Of a DNA stretch of 22,105 bases, positions 16,211 through 16,361 are shown in pieces. This DNA is from a virus: positions 1-22,105 of the IMG/VR virus record IMGVR_UViG_3300028837_000379; one strand, given 5' to 3'. The first letter of the stretch is position 1; every line of letters starts with the position of its first letter. Under the pieces are notes generated by a model. It searched no databases, had not been told where the DNA came from, and was given only the letters and a program-made list of their open reading frames with translations. A program made the translations under genes and the position numbers.

Positions 16211-16361
16211 AGCGGTGATGGGCGCGGCCGGACTCTCAGTTCGGGGAACCCCGGAGGCGAACCGTCCATGTGGGGCTCTGGCGCGGGAAGAGGCTGCAGA
16301 CTCGACTCGTGCTGACTCGGCGGTGCAAGGTCACAAATTCCTTGTCCGCGCCCATCCCGCT
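16211..16361 (+). ncRNA. Possible structured RNA closed by a 16-bp stem
   Basis: AGCGG (16211-16215), a bulged T, and GATGGGCGCGG (16217-16227) pair without mismatch with CCGCGCCCATC (16346-16356) and CCGCT (16357-16361). Inside, GGAC/GTCC (16230-16233/16264-16267) with GTTCG/CGAAC (16239-16243/16258-16262) makes one arm. CAAGG/CCTTG (16326-16330/16340-16344) makes another, stacked on the closing stem. It could be a stand-alone RNA or a leader that hides the GTG/ATG at 16215/16218 and controls the gene at 16372. It matches no RNA family I know. Confidence 0.35.

Follow-up and report, generated by a model that had tools for sequence, protein, structure and literature searches.

A 16-bp stem lies between a good Shine-Dalgarno (SD) sequence and the start of a small zinc-finger-like gene that has no local SD, in a tailed-phage fragment that encodes a T4-like portal, a terminase, and its own tmRNA. 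The window, by which we mean the whole stretch of DNA that was analysed (22,105 bp), is the complete virus record. We lean, tentatively, toward reading the stem as a split ribosome-binding site that would let the distant SD serve the zinc-finger start. The arrangement plausibly represents a longer form of a device already known from phages, and a functionless repeat is nearly as likely. As an observation, the original prediction of this stem is confirmed; its interpretation is partly supported, and the function of the stem is unproven.

Along the mRNA, AAGGAG (16201-16206) and ATG 16372 are 165 nt apart. Were 16210-16227 to pair with 16346-16362, 153 nt, comprising the stem and the sequence enclosed by it, would be tied off, and the gap between SD and ATG outside the helix would come down to 3 + 9 = 12 nt, a distance that a single 30S subunit can cover. 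The GTG/ATG at 16215/16218, which compete for the SD, would be buried in that helix. Formation of the stem in vivo, its use by ribosomes, and past selection for it are what we infer. The site would work like a split ribosome-binding site and is a candidate member of that class, two sequence features of which it shows: a start without a local SD but with a good SD upstream (anti-SD pairing of -0.7 versus -8.2 kcal/mol), and, by prediction, a stem that cuts the spacing from 165 to 12 nt. If the reading is correct, split ribosome-binding sites, so far with spacers of some tens of bases, would come to include one with more than 150 bases, and start-site annotation in gene-dense phages may be missing SDs that act across long stems. 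If it is wrong, the stem is an ordinary inverted repeat.

Pairing of the arms and the start of the zinc-finger gene

The 5' arm is made up of AGCGG (16211-16215), the bulged T16216, and GATGGGCGCGG (16217-16227), and the 3' arm of CCGCGCCCATC (16346-16356) followed by CCGCT (16357-16361). Together they form 16 Watson-Crick pairs with a single bulge around 118 enclosed nucleotides, and G16210 and T16362 add a terminal G-U pair. Pair probabilities predicted in a 300-nt context are 0.96-1.00 for 16212-16227. The sequence and the folding bear out the exact coordinates first proposed for the stem (16211-16361), the 3' strand of which ends, as claimed, ten bases 5' of ATG 16372. The features are collected in Table 1.

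Table 1. Features of the stem region (window coordinates) and portal insertions in related contigs
Feature	Position	Strand	Basis
Upstream gene, 182 aa, MAKKKASKKKG...	15624..16172	+	Gene-like codon use; tblastn matches in L128, L133, L175
Shine-Dalgarno AAGGAG, 3 nt 5' of stem	16201..16206	+	Sequence; anti-SD duplex -8.2 kcal/mol
5' arm of long-range stem (G16210 in terminal G-U pair, T16216 bulged)	16210..16227	+	Sequence, folding, stem scan
51-codon frame, GTG 16215 or ATG 16218, stop TGA 16368-16370	16215..16370	+	ORF; codon tests; stop-placement shuffle
Enclosed 118 nt, small predicted hairpins	16228..16345	+	Stability not above shuffled sequence
Alternative, unlikely start of zinc-finger frame: GGAGG 16253-16257, GTG 16270	16253..16272	+	Sequence; 34-codon extension not coding-like
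3' arm of long-range stem	16346..16362	+	Sequence, folding, stem scan
Small zinc-finger-like gene, 56 aa, CxxC...HxxC, no local SD	16372..16542	+	ORF, codon use, anti-SD survey
Portal insertion (same insertion in L136)	L135 7347-10382		Pfam intein-splicing match
Portal insertion	L134 3634-6687		Pfam intein-splicing match just below curated cut-off

The zinc-finger-like gene has gene-like codon use, and its 56-aa product has no Pfam or PHROG match. Among the gene starts surveyed, its ATG pairs most weakly with the anti-SD; the other accepted starts have -5.9 kcal/mol or better, and further weak values (at 45, 7567, 11967, and 12414) belong to roughly set coordinates and are not trusted. The original prediction, that the stem covers a GTG/ATG with a good ribosome site and that the next start has none, agrees with these energies: -8.2/-8.8 kcal/mol at 16215/16218 against -0.7 kcal/mol at 16372. 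Readthrough from the upstream gene is ruled out by two intervening in-frame stops.

The true start of the zinc-finger frame might instead be GTG 16270, in which case the 3' arm would be coding. The frame is open to that point and GGAGG is placed 12 nt upstream, but the 34-codon extension scores -0.17, which is not gene-like, and MAKKKKRR, at the start annotated here, looks like a native N terminus, resembling the MAKKKASKKKG of the neighboring gene. We consider GTG 16270 a very improbable start.

Folding stability and the frequency of such stems

Compared with shuffled controls, the check proposed with the original prediction, the segment folds better than expected: the z score is -2.83 for 16205-16375 (3 of 200 shuffles as stable) and -3.67 for 16209-16363 (1 of 400), falling to only -1.44 in a 351-nt context. 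On the reverse strand, the segment has a z of -2.34 and the interior one of +1.4. Scanned along its full length, the window has other places with z as low as or lower than that of the element. Within predicted coding regions around 14721 (plus strand) and 1721 (both strands), z drops to -4.6, below the element's own value.

The stability is unevenly distributed. The interior (16228-16345) has a z of -0.16, with 148 of 400 shuffles as stable, so that the inner arms thought possible at the outset are indeed predicted but are no more stable than shuffled sequence. Because the segment beats its shuffles and the interior does not, the data favor a single long-range stem, as modeled, over a folded small RNA or riboswitch. 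All of the excess stability residing in the stem, a pure spacer-shortening stem would fit. A structured cis-regulatory RNA or small RNA of ~155 nt with a five-way junction would account for the z of the whole segment and for its non-coding composition. However, the shuffled-like interior, the lack of any Rfam match to the element at gathering or permissive thresholds, and the lack of any promoter- or terminator-like site in a consensus scan of the plus strand remove most of that case, and a covariance model of the element has no match in relatives. We give a structured RNA scarcely any credence.

How remarkable the stem is depends on the comparison. The rough estimate of about one chance match of 11 bp agrees with the expectation for perfect 11-bp stems at the same range, 1.28 per window. 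For stems of at least 16 bp with one interruption, local dinucleotide shuffling predicts 0.035 per window, and the window has one; the claim that chance would not give the full 16 bp holds by this measure, and real sequence is more permissive, ~0.5 Mb of related phage DNA containing four distinct stems of comparable strength, or ~0.2 per window (22 kb). Taken by itself, the stem is thus uncommon without being exceptional.

That frequency speaks for another reading, in which the stem is an inverted repeat without function. It would have arisen by chance, or through a local template switch in which replication copied one of the arms, and would lie within a variable island, in a gap between genes that does not code. 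The element's absence from every relative examined is in keeping with such an origin, as is a far longer repeat in one related contig (L175 1354-1608), which shows that such repeats do arise in the group. Against it stand the low expectation from shuffles and the position of the stem: in relatives, each of the four comparable stems overlaps predicted genes, whereas the one in the window fills precisely the gap from an SD to an SD-less start. We regard a functionless repeat as a real possibility, though we would not bet on it. The L175 repeat is near-perfect, spans more than 36 bp, and has between its arms a gene start, the gene sitting at the expected place of a homolog of window gene 6458; it is either biological or an assembly artefact.

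Routes to initiation at ATG 16372

The order of SD, stem, and SD-less start, together with the upstream start codons held in the helix, makes a role in initiation of the downstream gene the best supported one for the stem. The original prediction had offered a translational switch or a new small RNA; of this, the role in zinc-finger initiation stands best, a switch between two regulated states is conjectural, and the small RNA is unsupported.

Split sites with short spacers are established in phage T4, where a stem shortens the distance between SD and start from 22 to 5 nt at gene 38 and from 27 to 11 nt at gene 25, and where stem-destabilizing mutations lower initiation (PMC3014915). As in these two genes, the window has an SD, a stem, and then an SD-less start, with an effective spacing of 12 nt against 5 and 11 nt. 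In contrast to them, its linear spacing is 165 nt rather than 22 or 27 nt, and its predicted stem, shared by no relative examined, closes off 118 nt together with a 51-codon frame. Inhibitory stems also occur at phage start sites, at T4 e, soc, 49, and I-TevI and at Aeh1 mobE (PMC3014915). Like these, the helix in the window has a start codon in it, namely the one of the 51-codon frame; unlike in them, the zinc-finger start is outside the main stem.

A scan of the window and its relatives for an SD, a stem of at least 12 bp, and an SD-less start ranks the window site first, with 17 pairs when G-U is allowed. The second site, with 16 pairs (L133 5116-5263), is inside an SMC-type gene, folds no better than shuffles, and is an accident, which means that, with start codons internal to genes included, chance can produce the arrangement about once in half a megabase.

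The 51-codon frame is the main complication. Both of its possible start codons are within the 5' arm and the predicted ensemble has them fully paired, the SD is 8 nt from GTG 16215, and its TGA precedes ATG 16372 by one base (TGA-C-ATG). In only 3.5% of shuffles does the first stop fall within 12 nt of that ATG (p = 0.035). Held-out gene windows have a 5th percentile of -0.075 in codon score; the frame scores lower, at -0.178, which is also near the top of wrong-frame windows. Its codon-position G+C is 0.76, 0.61, and 0.61, a third-minus-first difference reached by none of 4804 gene windows of this phage, which overlap and are not independent. Judging by composition, the frame is probably no protein gene, and it may be a leader frame; the sequence between SD and ATG 16372 is not coding-like, consistent with a split site.

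Read as a leader, the frame would be translated from the SD at 16201-16206, ribosomes would restart at ATG 16372, and the stem, by holding GTG 16215 and ATG 16218 in the helix, would act as a brake on leader initiation. The SD spacing, the placement of the stop, and the pairing of the start codons would all suit such coupling, and neighboring genes are often coupled through -4 or -1 overlaps. The frame resembles translationally coupled leader frames in being short, having a good SD, and ending beside an SD-less gene start, but it differs from them in that its start codons are in a strong stem and its codon use is not gene-like. The peptide has no homolog in the relatives searched, which also speaks against coupling; the poor codon use and G+C pattern do so too but are not decisive, since a leader need not encode a useful protein. 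We think this coupling rather unlikely. Less probable again, to the point of being doubtful, is a two-state site in which one SD has two starts and folding picks the product: with the stem open, the 3' arm being not yet transcribed, the SD would serve the GTG of the leader frame, and with the stem closed, the leader would be tied off and the SD would serve the zinc-finger start 165 nt away.

Several points count against the split site that we tentatively favor. The frame, with its own SD and adjoining stop, offers an alternative route to the zinc-finger gene. A spacing of 12 nt lies toward the upper limit of what is usable. The enclosed stretch is several times the length in the T4 cases, and in the sequence comparisons below neither conservation, covariation, nor a homolog of the element speaks for it.

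Relatives and the variable island

Relatives of the phage were found with terminases 30-64% identical to that of the window, some in contigs of 120-156 kb. The zinc-finger gene, the stem, and the leader frame are absent from all relatives examined, in collections that may leave out very near records. Searches with the element gave nothing beyond short chance matches in phage DNA and no match in plasmids. An exact search for the 16-base 5' arm in viral contigs returned 118 stretches, both arms being present only in the window itself, and a search of viral contigs for both arms gave none; the same search of genome contigs gave 20 matches, several of them Verrucomicrobia repeats and all with unrelated interiors. 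A single-sequence covariance model recovered the element, its own reverse strand, and noise only, and nothing in 12 whole relative contigs. Searches with the terminase, a head protein, and island genes recovered loci, none of which had the element. As no related sequence with the element was found, there were none to compare for covariation. The zinc-finger protein has no match in relatives or viral contigs, and Streptomyces phage Daubenski gave one weak match (E = 0.005).

A small mobile element with terminal inverted repeats was also considered and rejected: no direct repeat flanking the arms was seen, neither the rest of the window nor the viral contigs yielded another copy, and the matches in genome contigs differ in their interiors.

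Homologs of the upstream gene occur in L128, L133, and L175. In the latter two, that homolog is followed directly by a homolog of window gene 18603, and because these flanking genes are adjacent there, window 16173-18602 looks, from sequence comparison, like an island of this phage. The island contains the zinc-finger gene, genes 16554 and 16820, a NUMOD4/HNH endonuclease gene, and gene 17626. Genes 16554 and 16820 are small and mutually similar by eye, and the sole relative found of gene 17626 is in the contig of L131/L170.

Elsewhere in the window, the tmRNA gene is at 3787-4070 (Rfam RF00023, 108 bits), and its tag is AKKVVHGHFGAHAMAA as given by ARAGORN. The portal genes of relatives carry in-frame insertions at two different sites (Table 1), and their matches to Pfam intein-splicing families point to portal inteins.
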